The translations under genes were made by a program, and so were the position numbers. The notes beneath the pieces were generated by a model. That model had not been told where the DNA came from. It ran no database searches and worked only from the letters and a program-made list of their open reading frames with translations. Below, piece after piece: positions 3,217 to 63,010 of a stretch of 64,000 nucleotides of DNA (the stretch's first letter is position 1; every line of letters starts with the position of its first letter). This DNA is from Microvirga soli (lineage in GTDB: Bacteria > Pseudomonadota > Alphaproteobacteria > Rhizobiales > Beijerinckiaceae): positions 1 to 64,000 of the forward strand of contig NZ_JAERQE010000018.1 in assembly GCF_016734765.1 (NCBI RefSeq), in the 5' to 3' direction.

Positions 3217-4929
3217 GTGCAGTTCCTCGCCAACCGGAAGCTTTCCCATCTCACCACCGCCGCCATGGTGGCCTTCGTCGTGATGACCGCCGCCGCTCTC
3301 TTTGCGGTCGTGTCCCTTCAGACCCGCTCTGACGTCCAGAGCAAGGCGCTGGCGCAGCTGCAATCCAATGTGCGGACTTTCGTCGGCATCCTGCGCGGCT
3401 CCATCGACAGCCTGACGGTCAAGAAGGACGCCACCGGCGCCGTCACCGGGATCACGGTGAAGGACGATGCGGTGTTCTACAGCGATGAGCTCGCCGACCG
3501 GATCGCCGAAGCGACCCAGGCGCCCGCGACCCTGTTCGTGAAGGACAAGGCGAGCGGAGACTTCATCCGCCGCGCCACGAACATGCGCAACCCCGATGGA
3601 ACGCGCGCGGTCGGCACAGCCATGGACCGCAAGGGCGTGGTCTTCCCCATCGTGTCGGGCGGCGGCACCTATGTGGGCCAAGCCAAGATCCTCGGCGGCG
3701 ATTACCTCCTGGTGAACCTGCCGGTCTTCGGTCAGAGCGGACAGGTTCTGGGCGTGCTCGGCAGCGGGTTCCAGGTCACGGCGCTCGAGGCTTCGGCCAA
3801 CCGCCTCATGTGGCAGATGGGCATGGTGTCGCTCGCGGCCGTTCTCGTGCTGACCCTGGCGGCGATCCTCTCGGCCCGGATGCTGTTCCGGCCGATCCCG
3901 AAGCTCGCCGCGGCCATGAACGATCTGGCCCATGGCGATACCGCCGTGACGGTGCCCTACCTCGCCTCGAAGAACGAGATCGGCGAAATGGCTCGCGCGG
4001 TGGAGGTTTTCCGCGAGAACACGGTCGAGCGTCAGCGGCTTGCGGTTGAGCAGGCCGCCGAGAGCGATGCCAAGATGCAGCGCGCTTTGAGGCTCGATGG
4101 CCTGACCCGTCAGTTCGAATCCAATGTGTCGGCCCTGACGCAGGGGCTTGCCGCCGCCGCCTCGCAGATGGAGGCCACTGCCCAGACCATGACGGCCACG
4201 GCCGAGCGGACCAACCAGCAATCGGTCAGCGTCGCGGCCGCGGCCGAGCAGACCTCGGGCAGCGTGCAGACGGTGGCGGCCGCCACCGAGGAGATGTCGA
4301 TCTCGATCCGGGAGATCGCCCGGCAGGTCACCCAGTCGTCGCAGATCTCATTCGAGGCCGTGGAGAGCGCCAAGCGCACCAACGGCATCGTGCAGGCGCT
4401 CGCCGACGGCGCGCAGAAGATCGGCGAGGTCGTCGCCCTCATCAACACGATCGCGAGCCAGACCAACCTCCTGGCCCTCAACGCCACCATCGAGGCGGCG
4501 CGCGCCGGCGAGGCCGGCAAGGGCTTCGCGGTCGTGGCCTCCGAGGTGAAGAACCTCGCCACCCAGACCGCCAAGGCCACCGAGGAGATCGGCTCGCAGA
4601 TCGCCCAGATCCAGGGCGCCACGCAGGAAGCCGTGGATGCCATCCACGGGATCCAGACGGTCATCGATCAGATCTCCAACATCTCCACCGGCATCGCCGC
4701 CGCCATGGAGCAGCAGGGCGCGACCACAAGCGAGATCTCACGCAGCGTCCAGGAGGCGGCTCATGGCACCGGCCAGGTGACGCAGAGCATCGATAGCGTG
4801 AAGCACGGTGCAGGCGAAACCGGCGCTGCGGCGGTTCAGGTGCTGGACGCGGCGCAGGAATTGGCCCGCTACGCCGATAAGCTGAGCCGGGAAGTCGACG
4901 TCTTCCTGTCCGACGTCAAGGCGGCGTGA
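3217..4929 (+). CDS. Methyl-accepting chemotaxis protein
   Basis: A 570-residue transmembrane chemoreceptor. One membrane helix lies at about residues 11-34, followed by a periplasmic Cache-like sensor region to about 197. A second helix (about 200-222), a HAMP linker (to about 272) and a cytoplasmic signalling domain come next. The signalling hairpin tip [20 protein letters not shown] at about 416-436 is the invariant CheA/CheW contact region. The C-terminus lacks a CheR-tethering pentapeptide, so adaptation enzymes must bind elsewhere. The start is GTG. Its ligand cannot be told from sequence. No che genes are nearby, so it is an orphan receptor. Confidence 0.95.
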
Positions 4930-39944: not shown

Positions 39945-40265
39945 TTAGAGCTTGCGCGCGGCCTTCTCCGCAAGCCCCGACTGCGCCGTGCGGCGCTCCA
40001 GTTCGGCCATGACGTCACTTAGAGGAATATCCGCGCCCTGCAACACGACCAAAAGATGATAAAGCACGTCGGCCGCTTCCGCCGTGAGATTCTGCCGGTC
40101 CCCCTGCACAGCCGCGATGGCTGCTTCCACTGCCTCCTCGCCGAGCTTCTTGGCGGCTTTCGCCGGGCCGCCGCGGATGAGCTTGGCCGTATAGGACTCG
40201 GCCTCAGGCGCGGCGGCGCGCTCAGAGATAATACGGGCGAGATCGTCGAGGTTGAAGGTGGTCAT
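39945..40265 (-). CDS. hisE: Phosphoribosyl-ATP pyrophosphatase
   Basis: A 106-residue enzyme hydrolysing PR-ATP to PR-AMP, step two of histidine synthesis. The MazG-like helical fold shows [20 protein letters not shown] and [13 protein letters not shown] with the metal-binding acidic residues. Directly follows map and precedes coaA on the same strand. Length is normal. Confidence 0.95.
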
Positions 40266-40271
40266 GGATAA

Positions 40272-41021
40272 CTAGCCCGGCAGCGTGACGACAAGGGGAC
40301 CGTTGCGGGTGGCAACGACGGTGTGTTCGTACTGGACGGTGGGTGCGCGGGGCTCGCTGAACAGGGTCCAGGGATCGTCGCCGTCCTCGGCCCATTCCGC
40401 CCCCAGGGACAGGAAGGGCTCGACCGTGAAGACGAGGCCTTCGTTCATGATCCGGCGCTCCGAACGGTCGGGCCACGTCGAAATTTCCTTCGGCTCCTCG
40501 TGCAGGGAATGGCCGATGCCGTGGCTCGCGAGATTCCGCACCAGGGTATAGCCGTTCTTCTCGGCAAATTGTCCGATAGCCTGGCCGATCCCCGCAATCG
40601 GCTTGTTGGCCCCAACCTGGCGCAACCCGATCCACATGGCGCGCTTGCCATCCCGGCACAGGCGCTTGGTGGCGTTCGTGATCGGCGGAACCGCGAAGGA
40701 AGCGCCGGTATCGGCGAACAGGCCGTTCTTTTCCGCCGAAATATCGATGTTGACGAGATCGCCCGCCTCGATCCGCCGGGAGCCCGGAATGCCGTGGGCG
40801 ACCTCCTCGTTCACGCTGATGCAGGTCGCGCCGGGAAAATCGTAGACGAGCTCCGGGCCGGAGCGAGCCCCAGCCCTTTCGAGAAGCCAGCGCCCGATCT
40901 GGTCGAGTTCCGCAGTCGTCATGCCCGGCTCGAGCGCCGCAGCCATAGCCTCAAGAGTATTGGCCACGATCCGGCCGATCTCCTGAAGCTTGTTCAGATC
41001 GTCCTCGTTGGAGACCGTCAT
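40272..41021 (-). CDS. map: Methionine aminopeptidase, type I
   Basis: A 249-residue pita-bread-fold metalloprotease removing N-terminal Met. Metal ligands are visible: Asp in DLVNIDISAEKNGLFADTG, His in LASHGIGHSLHEEPKE, Glu in LVFTVEPFLSLG, and the final Glu in YEHTVV. The start at 41021 (MTVSNEDDL) begins 14 bases after the hisF stop. Its position between hisF and hisE is unusual and implies co-transcription with histidine genes. Confidence 0.93.
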   Translation of the reverse strand: MTVSNEDDLNKLQEIGRIVANTLEAMAAALEPGMTTAELDQIGRWLLERAGARSGPELVYDFPGATCISVNEEVAHGIPGSRRIEAGDLVNIDISAEKNGLFADTGASFAVPPITNATKRLCRDGKRAMWIGLRQVGANKPIAGIGQAIGQFAEKNGYTLVRNLASHGIGHSLHEEPKEISTWPDRSERRIMNEGLVFTVEPFLSLGAEWAEDGDDPWTLFSEPRAPTVQYEHTVVATRNGPLVVTLPG

Positions 41022-41034
41022 GGGCTGCGTTCTT

Positions 41035-41841
41035 TCATACTGTGCGGTTTGAAGCGCCGTGCGCCGGCTCATCCAGCCGCATCTTCAATCCTGCCTTCGC
41101 CATGTAGCCCTTGGCTTCCGAGATCGTATGCGTGCCGAAGTGGAAGATCGAGGCAGCCAGCACCGCGCTGGCATGGCCTTGCTCGACGCCATCAACGAGG
41201 TGATCGAGGTTGCCGACGCCGCCGGACGCGATGACCGGCACGGAGACAGCGTCCGCGATGGCGCGCACGAGCGCGAGGTCATAGCCGCCCTTGGTGCCGT
41301 CCCGGTCCATGGAGGTGACGAGCAGCTCCCCTGCCCCGAGCGCTGCCACCTGCTTGGCGAAGGCGATGGCATCGATGCCGGTGGCGTTGCGCCCGCCATG
41401 GGTGAAGATCTCCCAAGCCGTGGGCTCGCCCTCCCCTGAGACTTTCTTCGCATCGATGGCCACGACGATGCATTGCGCGCCGAACTTTTCCGATGCCTCG
41501 CGCACGAAATCCGGGTTCTTCACCGCAGCCGTGTTGATCGACACCTTGTCGGCGCCGGCGAGCAGCAAATTGCGTATGTCTTCGACGGTTCGCACACCAC
41601 CGCCGACGGTCAGGGGCATGAAACAGGCCTCAGCCGTGCGCTGCACGACATCGAGCAGGATCCCCCTAGCCTCGTGGCTGGCGGTGATGTCGAGGAAGCA
41701 GAGTTCGTCGGCGCCCGCCGCGTCATAGGCCTTCGCCGCTTCCACCGGATCACCCGCGTCGACAAGATCGACGAACTGCACGCCCTTCACGACGCGCCCG
41801 TCCTTGACATCCAAGCAAGGAATAAGGCGAACTTTTAACAT
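41035..41841 (-). CDS. hisF: Imidazole glycerol phosphate synthase, cyclase subunit
   Basis: A 268-residue (beta/alpha)8 barrel forming IGP and AICAR with HisH. The N-terminal [20 protein letters not shown] holds the catalytic Asp; later come [12 protein letters not shown] and [13 protein letters not shown] phosphate-binding loops. The start at 41841 begins with the conserved motif. It is separated from hisA by a DUF3800 gene on the other strand and a terminator-bearing mini-unit, so its transcription must restart here. Confidence 0.97.
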
Positions 41842-41873
41842 AACATAACAACCTGCCCGTGAATGGGAATCGA

Positions 41874-42617
41874 ATGCCATTGTTTTCCGATTATGTCATC
41901 TACGTTGATGAGAGTGGTGATCATGATCTCACTTCGATCAATGAAGATTTTCCGCTCTTCGTCCTAGCATTCTGCATATTTAAGAAATCGGATTACGTTA
42001 GGGAGATCGTGCCAGCCATTCAAGAATTCAAATTTCGGTGGTTCGGACATGACATGGTCATTCTCCATGAACGGGAAATCAGGAAGCAACAGGCACCTTT
42101 TAAATTTCTGCAGAACCAAGAGAACAGACAGAAATTCATGGATGAATTATCAGTGATCATCCAAGGGGCAAACGTTACCCTTATTGCCAGCGTAATCGAT
42201 AAGAGAAGTCTTACACGCCGGTATGCTTCTCCTGATAATCCTTATCACATCGGGCTGCAGTTTTGCATGGAACGTACGCACGCTTTCCTGCTCGAAAACG
42301 GACAGAGCGGCAAGATTGCTCACTGCATGTTCGAGAAGCGAGGAGCAAAAGAAGACAATATGCTGGAACTTGAGTTCAGGCGTATCAAAGATCGTGGAAA
42401 TTATAACCGCATCAGTATGGGGGAGCTTAATATCTGCTTTGCAGACAAGAAGGCGAACTCATCTGGCCTACAGTTGGCAGATCTGTTTGCTAGGCCGATT
42501 GGTCTGGGTGTTTTAAGGCCTGGGCAACCTAACCGAACACGAGAAATCATTGCTGAAAAGTTTCGACGAAGCCCAACTGGTAAGACCTTGGGATGGGGCC
42601 TGAAAATCTTCCCCTAA
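41874..42617 (+). CDS. DUF3800-domain protein, probable horizontal insertion
   Basis: A 247-residue protein with the hallmark N-terminal YVDESGDHD (acidic residues at 12, 13 and 16 in an RNase H-like setting). An LHEREIRKQ motif follows, and [15 protein letters not shown] lies near the C-terminus; the spacing resembles a catalytic acidic cluster. DUF3800 proteins have no settled function; nuclease activity and defence roles are conjectured. The gene is visibly A+T-rich compared with all neighbours and sits in opposite orientation inside the histidine operon, between hisA and hisF, which suggests acquisition. A GTG at 41859 is an alternative start; the ATG at 41874 has GGGA upstream. Confidence 0.85.
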
Positions 42618-42648
42618 AAAGCGAAAAGCCCCGGACAAAGCCGAGGCT
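42615..42648 (-). terminator. Intrinsic terminator after hisA and the SOS mini-unit
   Basis: On the minus strand the stem AGCCTCGG/CCGGGGCT (42627-42648, one G-U pair in RNA, six-base loop) is followed by TTTTCGCTTTTT. The strand bias of the wobble and the T-tract shows it acts leftward, ending both hisBHA transcripts and the SOS-promoter transcript. It abuts the 3' end of the DUF3800 gene. Confidence 0.8.
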
Positions 42649-42682
42649 AGACGCCGACCGAGAACATCCCCCAGTCCATTTG
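42618..42682 (-). ncRNA. Predicted short SOS-controlled transcript of about 65 nt
   Basis: Bounded on the right by a consensus promoter (42689-42718) and on the left by an intrinsic terminator. The only ORF is a 10-codon one starting about 2-3 nt from the expected transcript end, so it would be nearly leaderless. If termination fails, the RNA extends antisense to the DUF3800 gene. Not a known RNA family to me. Confidence 0.45.
42647..42679 (-). CDS. Ten-codon ORF downstream of the SOS promoter
   Basis: Encodes MDWGMFSVGV followed by TAG; the stop codon is inside the terminator stem. No ribosome site is visible because the expected transcript begins only a few bases before the ATG, so translation would be leaderless. 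It may be a remnant 5' end, a leader peptide or spurious. Confidence 0.25.
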   Translation of the reverse strand: MDWGMFSVGV

Positions 42683-42688
42683 CGAATC

Positions 42689-42718
42689 ACTATATGTGAA
42701 CAAAATGCGAACTGTCAA
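42689..42718 (-). promoter_or_regulatory. Sigma-70 promoter overlapped by a LexA (SOS) box
   Basis: On the minus strand: -35 TTGACA (42713-42718, overlapping the hisA stop codon), an 18-base spacer, and -10 TATAGT (42689-42694). The spacer contains GTTCGCATTTTGTTC (42698-42712), an exact GTTC-N7-GTTC direct repeat, which is the alphaproteobacterial LexA operator. Binding between -35 and -10 should repress; DNA damage should induce. Confidence 0.7.
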
Positions 42719-43491
42719 GAGGAAGACTTGACAGAACCTTCTACGTGAGTCCGTCGAATCGTTTTCAGCAGCGTCAGCGCCTCGACTGGATCGATGCGTC
42801 CGTCATACAGCGCACGGCCGGAGATGGCGCCATTGAGGACGGCGCAGTCTGGTGCCGTGAGGCGCTCGATATCGGCCATGGAGGCGAGGCCGCCGGACGC
42901 GATGACCGGGATGGAGACGGCGCGGGCGAGGCCTAGAGTCATCGGGAAGTTGAGGCCCTTGAGGATGCCGTCGCGGGCGATGTCCGTGTAGATGATGGCC
43001 GCGACGCCCGCATCCTCGAAGCGGCGCCCGAGCTCTTCCGCCGATAGGGTCGAGGTCTGGGCCCAGCCCTCCACGGCCACAAGACCGTCCTTGGCGTCGA
43101 TGCCCACCGCGATCTTGCCCGGATGGAGGCGGGCGGCCTCGCGCACGAAATCCGGGTCGCGCACGGCTGCCGTGCCGATGATCACGCGGGACACACCCTT
43201 CGCCAGCCAGCCCTCGACGGTCTTCATGTCACGAATGCCGCCGCCGAGCTGCACGGGAATTTTGACGCGCTTGAGGATGTTTTCGACCGCTGCCGCATTC
43301 ATCGGCTTGCCGGCGAACGCTCCGTCGAGATCGACTACGTGCAGCCACTCAAAACCCTGAGCCTCGAAGGTGGCGGCCTGGTCGGCGGGATCGTCGTTGA
43401 ACACGGTCGCCTGATCCATGTCGCCCTGGATCAGGCGGACGCACAGGCCCTCTTTGAGGTCGATGGCAGGATAGAGGATCACGGGCGCCAC
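42715..43491 (-). CDS. hisA: Phosphoribosylformimino-AICAR ribotide isomerase
   Basis: A 258-residue (beta/alpha)8 barrel, step four of histidine synthesis. N-terminal [21 protein letters not shown] has the catalytic Asp; [17 protein letters not shown] and [16 protein letters not shown] are the paired phosphate loops. It overlaps the 3' end of hisH by 13 bases. The last codons contain the -35 box of a leftward SOS-type promoter. Confidence 0.97.
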
Positions 43492-44129
43492 CTTAGGAAA
43501 TTGGCGATGAGCTTGAGGCCGAGGGCCTGGCTCTTCTCGGGATGAAACTGGGCGCCGACGAGGTTGTCGCGCCCGACGATAGCCGTCACCGGCCCGCCGT
43601 AATCGGTGGTGGCGACCACGTCGGCCGGATCCGCCGGGGTCAGGGCATAGGAATGCACGAAATAGGCGTGCAGCCCGTCCGGCCCTGTGGGAATGCCGTC
43701 GAGCAGCGGATGCGGCTTGGCCAGCTCAAGCGTGTTCCAGCCCATATGCGGGATCTTGAGAGACGGATCGCTCGGTGTGATCGCCTTCACGTCGCCCTTG
43801 ATCCAGTCGAGGCCATAGCTGGTCGTATGTTCGAGGCCGCGCGTGGCCATGAGCTGCATGCCGACGCAGATGCCGAAGAACGGACGCTTGTCCTCATGGA
43901 CGCGCCGCTGCAGCGCCTCCACCATGCCGGGCACGGAATCGAGGCCGCGACGGCAATCGGCGAAGGCGCCGACGCCTGGCAGCACGATCCGGTCGGCTTT
44001 GGCGACCACATTCGGATTGGACGAGACCGTGATGGGAAGATCAAGCTCCGCCTCGCGCGCCGCCCGCTCGAAGGCCTTGGCGGCGGAGTGCAGGTTGCCG
44101 GACCCGTAATCGATGATGACGACGCTCAC
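43479..44129 (-). CDS. hisH: Imidazole glycerol phosphate synthase, glutaminase subunit
   Basis: A 216-residue class I glutamine amidotransferase supplying ammonia to HisF. The nucleophile Cys lies in [15 protein letters not shown], and the His-Glu pair near the C-terminus in [27 protein letters not shown] starts the protein. It overlaps DUF2628 by 4 bases upstream and hisA by 13 downstream. Confidence 0.97.
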
Positions 44130-44620
44130 CGCGGACGCTCCGCATCGGGAAAGAGGCCGATCACCGGCTCGGCGGATCGTCTCGGGGTGGACAGGATCGG
44201 CGACGGCGACGAACTGCGGGGCAGGGGTGCCGACCTCGCGTCGAGCCAGCGGGCGAAGGCCTTGGCCTCCGCTTCATCCTGGTCGGCGGCCGTCACCGCA
44301 TCGACCGCCGGGCGGCCGCGGCGCGCGAGCGTCCAGCGGCGCAGGCTGTTGGCCTCAAGGCCGATCAGGCTCTGCAGCAGGAGCTGGGCGATGGAGCCGG
44401 CCAGCGGATGCACGTCCAGCACGGCCATGAGGCCGCCGAAGGCGAGGACGATCAGCAGAATGCCAAGGCCGGCGAGCCACAGGCGATGGACGAAGAACCA
44501 CAGGAAGGTGAAGAAGAAGGCTCCCCAGGAGAAGCCGTCCTTCACGAGTTCTGATTCGTCCAAAGCGCTCGGATCACCCGGCCGCGCATCGCGCGGGAGG
44601 TGCAGGGTATAGGTGGTCAT
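44126..44620 (-). CDS. DUF2628-domain membrane protein in the histidine operon
   Basis: A 164-residue protein with a soluble start ([20 protein letters not shown]), then [17 protein letters not shown] and two or three hydrophobic helices, and an Ala/Arg-rich tail. The DUF2628 family has no known function. It overlaps hisH by 4 bases, and lies between hisB and hisH, a placement I recall from other Rhizobiales, so it is translationally coupled to histidine synthesis without an evident enzymatic role. Confidence 0.82.
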
Positions 44621-44695
44621 GGCGACGTTTCCTCAGGCCTTGCCCAATGAGGTGACGACAATGATCTCGCCAGGCAAGGTGCCTCTTGAATAGAT

Positions 44696-45286
44696 CTAGA
44701 GCGTACCCTTGGTGGAGGGAACGCGGCCCTCTTCCCTTGGGTCCAGTGCCACGGCCTGACGCAAGGCCCGTGCCAAGCCCTTGAAGCAGCTCTCGGCGAT
44801 ATGGTGGCTGTTCTCGCCGTAGAGCGTTTCCACGTGGAGCGTCAGCCCCGACTGGATGGCGAAGGCCTGGAAGAACTCGCGCACCAGCTCGGTGTCGAAG
44901 ACGCCGATCTTCTCCGTCGGGAAGGTGGTCCGGAACACCAGGAAGGGACGGCCCGAGATGTCGAGGGCGATGCGCGTCAAGGTCTCGTCCATCGGCAGAT
45001 GGATGTCGGCATAGCGCGTGATGCCCTTTTTATCGCCAAGCGCCTTCAGGATGGCTTGGCCCAGCGCAATCCCGGTGTCCTCGGTGGTATGATGCTGGTC
45101 CACATGCAGGTCGCCGGTCACCTTCACGGAGAGGTCGAAGTGACCATGTCGGGCGAACAGTTCGAGCATATGGTCCAGGAAGCCGACGCCGGTGGAGATC
45201 TCGGCCTTGCCGGTGCCATCGAGGGCGATCGACAGGACGATATCGGTCTCGGCGGTACGACGGCTGACGCTCGCGGAGCGCATCAT
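44696..45286 (-). CDS. hisB: Imidazoleglycerol-phosphate dehydratase
   Basis: A 196-residue monofunctional HisB, a manganese enzyme in step six of histidine synthesis. Metal-binding histidine motifs are VDQHHTTED and [10 protein letters not shown]; the N-terminus has [20 protein letters not shown]. No phosphatase domain is fused. The ATG at 45286 has AAGGA five bases upstream; GTG 45289 and ATG 45283 are close alternatives. It is the first of the leftward his genes, divergent from hslV. Confidence 0.96.
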
Positions 45287-45395
45287 CACAATCCTTTGCG
45301 GAACAAGAGACGGGGCGTTCTAGCAAGGAGTGCGGAGAAATGCCACCCGCGTTGCTTTTGGGCGATCAATGATTAAGTCAGCCGGATAACGGCCC

Positions 45396-45983
45396 ATGGC
45401 CGCCCAGTTCTTTCCCGCCGGAGCCCTTGCCTTGTCCGATGACGCCACCCCTCGCATGCATGCCACCACCATCCTCATGGTCCGAAAGGGCGGCCGCACC
45501 GTCATCGGCGGCGACGGGCAGGTGAGCCTCGGCCAGACCGTGGTAAAGGGCAATGCGAAAAAAGTCCGGCGCCTCGCCAAGGGTGGAGTGATCGGCGGCT
45601 TTGCCGGCTCGACGGCTGATGCCTTCACCCTGTTCGAGCGCCTCGAGGCCAAGCTCGAGCAATATCCCGGCCAGCTCACCCGCGCCTGCGTCGAGCTCAC
45701 CAAGGATTGGCGCACGGACCGGTATCTGCGCCGCCTTGAGGCCATGATGCTGGTGGCTGACAAGGAGGTGGGCCTGCTGCTCTCCGGCGCCGGCGACGTG
45801 CTGGAGCCGGAAAACGGCATCATGGCCATCGGGTCCGGCGGCAATTACGCGCTCGCAGCCGCCCGCGCTCTGGCCGAATACGAGACGGATCCGGAGACCA
45901 TCGTGCGCCGCTCGCTCGGCATTGCGGCCGAGATCTGCGTCTACACGAATTCGAATATCGTCATTGAGACCCTGGACAGCTGA
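45396..45983 (+). CDS. hslV: ATP-dependent protease subunit HslV
   Basis: A 195-residue proteasome-like peptidase. After a propeptide of 23 residues the catalytic Thr24-Thr25 pair appears ([12 protein letters not shown]); [23 protein letters not shown] and [13 protein letters not shown] follow. The long propeptide resembles that of Bradyrhizobium-type HslV. Twelve such subunits pair with HslU hexamers to degrade misfolded and regulatory proteins after heat stress. Its stop overlaps the hslU start by one base. Confidence 0.96.

Positions 45984-61390: not shown

Positions 61391-63010
<1,620 letters not shown>

Follow-up and report, generated by a model that had tools for sequence, protein, structure and literature searches.

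DUF3800 proteins are widespread and have been linked to retrons; in the literature searched, no paper was found that treats DUF3800 and a retron together. They are present in some CRISPR loci (PMC10910872, PMC12669027), and no tested function for them was found in the sections of the DUF3800 literature available to us. Weinberg et al. 2017 is the founding paper on DUF3800-associated RNAs (cited in PMC10910872), and Rfam holds such RNAs as DUF3800-I (RF02969) and DUF3800-IX (RF02968) (PMC11701678), with DUF3800-V as RF02964. A protein with a cognate structured RNA is also known from a C. difficile prophage, where the RNA of the AbiF-RCd22 pair neutralises the toxic protein by direct binding (PMC12373285). 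In Caulobacter, DNA-damage small RNAs such as ChvR are raised by mitomycin C, and the available part of that study reports that the start sites of the induced sRNAs have no SOS box nearby (PMC6237742). GTTCN7GTTC is the published LexA motif of Caulobacter (PMC12700426, PMC6237742).

We examined a compact transcription unit between hisA and a convergent DUF3800 gene in the window, the 64,000-nucleotide stretch of Microvirga soli DNA analysed here (Table 1). The unit is most likely a small folded RNA rather than a tiny peptide gene, which agrees with one of the readings offered by the first-pass annotation, and the RNA recurs beside DUF3800 genes far from the his locus. A methionine aminopeptidase-like frame was also seen by eye between hisF and hisE (window 40272-41072).

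Table 1. Features of the hisA-DUF3800-hisF region (window coordinates).
Feature	Position	Strand	Remark
hisF	41035-41841	minus	window gene
DUF3800 gene (PF12686)	41874..42617	plus	convergent partner; predicted RNase HII-like fold
Predicted small RNA, ~65 nt	42616..42682	minus	start inferred from the -10
Outer stem enclosing hairpin 2	42652-42655 with 42620-42623	minus	
Hairpin 2, terminator-like	42627..42648	minus	covarying; T-rich tail
10-codon ORF (MDWGMFSVGV)	42647..42679	minus	ATG at 42679, TAG ending 42647; considered non-coding
Hairpin 1	42656..42676	minus	covarying
Sigma-70-type promoter	42689..42718	minus	hexamers kept in 5/5 his-locus copies
-10 TATAGT	42689-42694	minus	18-nt spacer from the -35
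LexA-type operator GTTC-N7-GTTC, GTTCGCATTTTGTTC	42698..42712	minus	between -35 and -10
-35 TTGACA	42713-42718	minus	contains the hisA stop
hisA	42715-43491	minus	window gene

Like the DUF3800 RNAs of Rfam, the window RNA is a structured RNA tied to DUF3800 genes, and it stands constantly beside such a gene. It differs from them in being about 70 nt long with two hairpins, in nearly abutting the DUF3800 stop, and in carrying a LexA box in some copies. The Rfam DUF3800 models (DUF3800-I to -XI) gave no match in window positions 42480-42850 at E values up to 10, none at 19 loci (18 of them RNA-bearing) at E up to 0.05, and none at 11 further loci at E up to 0.1. A search with the Rfam DUF3800-I model found 0 of 150 genomes, with the controls likewise without signal. 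Among viral DUF3800 loci without this RNA, the Rfam scan covered 8 of 10, and L166 alone gave DUF3800-V, above the cut-off (L166:3913-4058), convergent and 168 nt past the end of a distant DUF3800 match, indicating that known DUF3800 RNAs can share the convergent layout. RNAs of this kind are already known, but Rfam has no entry for the present family, the 2017 motifs having been compared as far as they are included there; a description of this RNA was not found in the available sections of the DUF3800 literature searched.

BjrC68 (RF02353) resembles the window RNA family in having two hairpins. Identity with it was rejected, as its scores on four of these RNAs (24.6-31.8 bits) lie below the gathering cut-off of 39 and none of the 30 BjrC68 loci examined has a DUF3800 match. 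It also differs in having 16 full matches in one other family, and it gave no match in the window genome. The DUF3800-RNA pair shares with AbiF-RCd22 a prophage-borne protein and a cognate structured RNA with its own promoter and terminator. However, according to the available sections of PMC12373285, RCd22 lies upstream of its partner in the same direction, the protein belongs to another family, and RCd22 has been shown to bind and neutralise the toxin, whereas the DUF3800-RNA pair is known here from sequence.

The conservation of the unit is the strongest support that it is real. The first-pass annotation had named conservation outside this strain as a test; of 48 genus genomes, 5 (G000, G012, G002, G016, and G062) proved to hold the segment when searched with a 106-base query. 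The five copies keep the box, both hexamers, 27 consecutive transcript bases, and both hairpins. The earlier suggestion of a remnant promoter found no support. All five are ordered hisA, RNA unit, reverse DUF3800 gene, and hisF; in G010, the one genome in which the empty site was looked at, hisF follows hisA without an insert (L007).

The promoter was found on the minus strand as described earlier, with GTTC-N7-GTTC exactly between its hexamers, which match 11 of 12 consensus letters. The annotated overlap of the -35 with the end of hisA also proved correct: TTGACA contains the hisA TGA, by position in all five related copies. An inverted repeat, CTGTCAAG-N7-CTTGACAG (window 42714-42736), spans the hisA stop and the -35, and a repeat resembling it precedes the RNA promoter at L062. 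Promoter-like sites numbered 2 in positions 40000-45500, against a shuffle mean of 1.0, and GTTC-N7-GTTC alone is not unusual, with 2 in the window against 1.6 expected; the second lies at 61907-61921 on the plus strand. TTGAC-N followed directly by the box occurred once in the window and in 0 of 100 shuffles. A looser TTGAC/box form occurred 8 times in the whole genome, compared to 5 for the reversed control pattern, and only the match between hisA and DUF3800 continues to TATNNT at the right spacing. When the 45-nt promoter region was shuffled, a box on either strand arose in 262 of 200000 cases. The half-sites are invariant in the five his-locus copies, with 4 of the 7 spacer columns variable. 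All five genomes also carry the motif in front of lexA, some 60-75 bp before its start. These observations agree with the alphaproteobacterial LexA operator proposed earlier. The promoter carries the GTTC-N7-GTTC that characterises the alphaproteobacterial LexA regulon, and both LexA binding and damage induction are predicted from it. In contrast to the Caulobacter sRNAs, the Microvirga RNA has a consensus LexA box in its promoter spacer, and its damage induction would follow from that box.

We additionally examined 73 RNA promoters, a set that omits near-identical viral copies and is not quite identical to the 73 sources used for alignment. An alphaproteobacterial LexA box in either orientation was found in six, namely the five his-locus copies and L036 of G237 (1380-1432), where GAAC-N7-GAAC is found immediately before the -35 of the RNA promoter. 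Gamma-type or Gram-positive LexA boxes were found in 0 of the 73. Since the five copies are of one lineage, they count as one event. The L036 box is a doubtful sixth case and a possible second independent LexA-type box; under a uniform base model, the chance expectation for a box among the remaining promoters is about 0.09. LexA control looks like a local addition gained once in the his-locus lineage rather than the core of the module. Elsewhere, in contig C129 of G000 (L200, ~4182-4202), TTGACTGTTCTGGCTATGTTC lies about 50 bp before a frame that by eye resembles an IS200/IS605 OrfB and is a possible LexA-type site. Control of the RNA by phage repressors in prophages was rejected, as none of the five palindromes searched for recurs in its own locus. 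Palindromes with arms of at least 6 overlap 9 of the 73 promoters, with a mean best arm of 4.2 against 3.9 in shuffled sequences, and among 21 promoters compared with their own loci, none shares more than the best of six shuffles.

The annotated terminator-like hairpin with its T-rich tail is present. Its score alone proves nothing, because 4 terminator-like sites were found in the scanned stretch against 3.9 expected in shuffles. As a whole, the window RNA has a better fold than shuffled versions of it (z -3.58, with 1 of 200 shuffles as good). A sequence-only alignment, A3, was made of 21 RNAs taken from 27 matches; it omits L055 (identical to L054), L046 and L053 (21 bits, without a DUF3800 match), and three low matches from the opposite strand. 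A3 supports the two hairpins as well as the outer stem GGCG/CGCU, which is invariant among the 21. In A3, 99.0% of the cells are paired, compared to 39-66% when the partners were slid, and double changes occur in 6 of 20 pairs versus 2.1 in shuffles (0 of 500 had as many). Among 72 RNAs fitted to the model, double changes occur in 15 of 20 pairs versus 9.7 in shuffles, in an alignment that leans towards the structure because it was model-fitted. Of the 73 sources given to the model, from which near-identical viral copies were omitted, 72 matched and L139 was missed. Hairpin 1 has a length of 18, 21, or 39 in 65 of the 72 RNAs and of 17, 19, or 20 in the other 7. The 39-base hairpin 1 at L138:3740-3826 carries an insertion of some 20 bases around its loop, compared with the usual 18 or 21.

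The pairing of the RNA with DUF3800 is not incidental: the same convergent layout occurs in prophages, plasmids, and other chromosomes. On the RNA side, a first covariance model was built from the five his-locus copies. A covariance search of 298 family genomes gave 13 matching genomes at E 7e-8 or better, followed by a long weak tail (108 of 298 at E 0.1). An open DUF3800 gene adjoins the RNA in 10 of the 13 genomes. In G041 (L060) the gene is reduced to its last codons, in G563 (L064) a displaced fragment lies near a contig end, and in G470 (L066) no DUF3800 was found beside the RNA at E 1e-3. The L064 fragment (L064:2630-3049) starts with a peptide that resembles a translated sequencing adapter, so that the gene may have been broken in assembly. 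Model R2, searched across the class, matched 4 of 337 genomes, which are our own, L108 and L109 with an open DUF3800 gene beside the RNA, and L107 with a decayed remnant. Intact RNAs were also found beside DUF3800 genes interrupted by stops at L033 and L035. A pattern scan of genome contigs gave 16 stretches, comprising two from Microvirga, L048 (a Rhodospirillales MAG with DUF3800), and 13 without a DUF3800 match, and the same scan of viral contigs gave two further stretches.

On the protein side, DUF3800 relatives were found in 9 of the 48 genus genomes. The RNA is at the gene end in all eight of those with at least 52% identity; in the ninth (L034, 33% identity) it was not found at the DUF3800 gene end. 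Among 397 genomes of the order, three match the protein at E 1e-30, and the two besides our own both carry the RNA (L035 and L036, the latter with its DUF3800 gene split over two contigs). A relative is encoded at 69 loci of IMG/VR, a redundant locus set, and the RNA lies convergent within 40 nt of the DUF3800 match end in 59 of them. With at least 40% identity, the RNA was present at 54 of 54 loci; below 40%, it was present at 5 of 15 and absent from 10. Weak RNA matches among the 59 are those of L152 (E 0.004), L161 (0.016), and L139 (0.026). The gap between DUF3800 and the RNA has a median of 5 nt, with overlap in places. Seven of the 47 matching plasmid records were examined for the RNA, and all seven have it beside DUF3800 (M. 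extorquens DM4, B. elkanii USDA 94, P. fungorum, S. meliloti SM11, A. baumannii, Novosphingobium, and Shinella). Three phage records were examined. The RNA match scores 51.7 bits in P. aeruginosa phage JBD68; that in Paracoccus phage Pkon1 is correctly positioned but weak (16.4 bits, E 0.012), and the RNA was not found with the DUF3800 of a Latilactobacillus phage (28% identity). In JBD68 (L185:3306-4780), the DUF3800 gene gp43 stands between the CI-like repressor gene gp44, immediately upstream, and the convergent RNA, and this position just downstream of the repressor suggests expression in lysogeny. Relatives of the L125 gene were also sought in E. coli, where megablast gave no match.

The RNA persists with a decayed or interrupted DUF3800 gene at L060, L107, L033, and L035, and the reverse was never seen at 40% identity or above. 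An RNA without a working protein but not the reverse is the asymmetry expected of an antidote and a toxin, an asymmetry that is partly a sampling effect, as the RNA-first matches contain the RNA by construction.

The DUF3800 protein of the window matches PF12686 with 67.8 bits (cut-off 21, E 2.2e-18). AlphaFold2 run on 15 aligned relatives gave a model with a pLDDT of 91.6 and a pTM of 0.89, for which the best solved Foldseek match is RNase HII (2dff, E 2.1e-4). In a structural comparison restricted to chains ranked high by Foldseek, RNase HII 1eke_B gave Z 11.0 (rmsd 3.4, 164 residues aligned), followed by RNase H2 and H3 near Z 9 and by Argonaute/Piwi chains with Z up to 8.6. Five acidic residues (D11, E12, D59, E153, and D202) are invariant among the 15 DUF3800 sequences; they are suggestive, and only suggestive, of metal-dependent cleavage. 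In the predicted model the protein has an RNase HII-like fold, and it probably acts as a metal-dependent nuclease. PADLOC gave no match for the window protein, and only L140 matched its DUF3800_VII (E 3e-4); neither PHROGs nor NCBIfam yielded a match for the four DUF3800 proteins submitted.

Several readings of the unit have to be weighed against these results: an antidote or regulator comes first, a cofactor second, an antisense RNA third, and a peptide or a bare terminator last. The 10-codon frame was present as annotated, and its stop lies in the terminator stem of the window genome as claimed, but not in the other four copies; its reading as a peptide was not supported. Only the window genome has the TAG, the other copies having TGG, GGG, or a shifted frame, and G016 has GTG in place of the ATG. 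Among the 72 homologues, a stop within the RNA ends the frame in just 20, the frame runs open through the RNA end in 52, a start-like AUG, GUG, or UUG is present in 62, and 10 have no start. The conserved frame with a stop that would be expected of an SOS peptide was found neither in the five copies nor in the homologues. The compensatory base changes alter amino acids, for example from GAC-TGG to GGT-TGC. The peptide is unsupported because its stop is not conserved, the frame is mostly open, and the two hairpins covary. The start-like triplets and the hairpin-1 lengths lend a reading frame some small probability, and the lengths are explained well enough by the two common ones in related sequences. 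An SOS-induced small peptide, be it MDWGMFSVGV or a longer frame, is highly improbable. We give scarcely any credence to the idea that the unit is the terminator of hisA preceded by a promoter that arose by chance. Some 70 nt separate the hisA stop from hairpin 2, which does have a terminator-like form, but the RNA stands beside DUF3800 at many loci without his genes, and the promoter and hairpin 1 are conserved too. A terminator or remnant promoter only is ruled out by the pairing with DUF3800 at many loci.

Antisense action on DUF3800, a possibility named in the first-pass annotation, would have read-through of the RNA pair with the 3' end of the DUF3800 mRNA, or that 3' end pair with the RNA. 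The convergent genes, nearly abutting and in places overlapping, are what it would predict, but purely antisense action would not call for compensatory changes or for bases that distant carriers have in common, a terminator-like hairpin closes the RNA, and the conserved RNA structure is left unexplained; we regard it as improbable. The RNA might instead be an obligate cofactor or scaffold that DUF3800 needs to recognise or cut nucleic acid, such as that of an incoming phage. This would account for the strict pairing and for the conservation of bases as well as structure. It is consistent with an RNase H-type fold for which Argonaute/Piwi chains come second to RNase HII and with the DUF3800 proteins of some CRISPR loci (PMC10910872, PMC12669027). 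LexA control would then arm the system upon damage, more RNA making sense for an activator. However, the RNA alignments contain no variable guide-like segment, and RNAs persist beside decayed DUF3800 genes; we consider a cofactor rather unlikely.

The reading towards which we lean is that the RNA is the antidote or regulator partner of a mobile DUF3800 nuclease and is wired to the SOS response in the Microvirga lineage. A sigma-70-type promoter would produce the two-hairpin RNA of about 65 nt, ending beside the convergent DUF3800 stop, and this RNA would bind the DUF3800 protein, a predicted metal-dependent nuclease of RNase HII-like fold, and restrain or regulate it, by analogy with RCd22 and AbiF. 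Toxicity of DUF3800 and its neutralisation by the RNA are suggested by the pairing and the pattern of decay. In Microvirga, where hisA and hisF flank the module, the promoter of the RNA has gained a LexA operator, by which DNA damage should increase the RNA and tilt the balance between the two partners. We tentatively propose, as a wider picture, a group of uncatalogued proteobacterial mobile modules, each pairing an RNase HII-like DUF3800 nuclease with a two-hairpin RNA that controls or arms it, with the Microvirga branch under LexA control.

As a compact and constantly paired RNA-protein module with named carriers, including M. extorquens DM4, S. meliloti SM11, and P. aeruginosa phage JBD68, the unit makes the role of a DUF3800 RNA directly testable. 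Through the consensus LexA box of its promoter, the RNA would also be placed under a DNA-damage switch. If true, this would be an SOS-controlled alphaproteobacterial small RNA, which the Caulobacter study, in its available part, did not find (PMC6237742). On the wider picture proposed above, the module would represent a new RNA-antidote or RNA-dependent nuclease system, in which the pair is switched by DNA damage in Microvirga.
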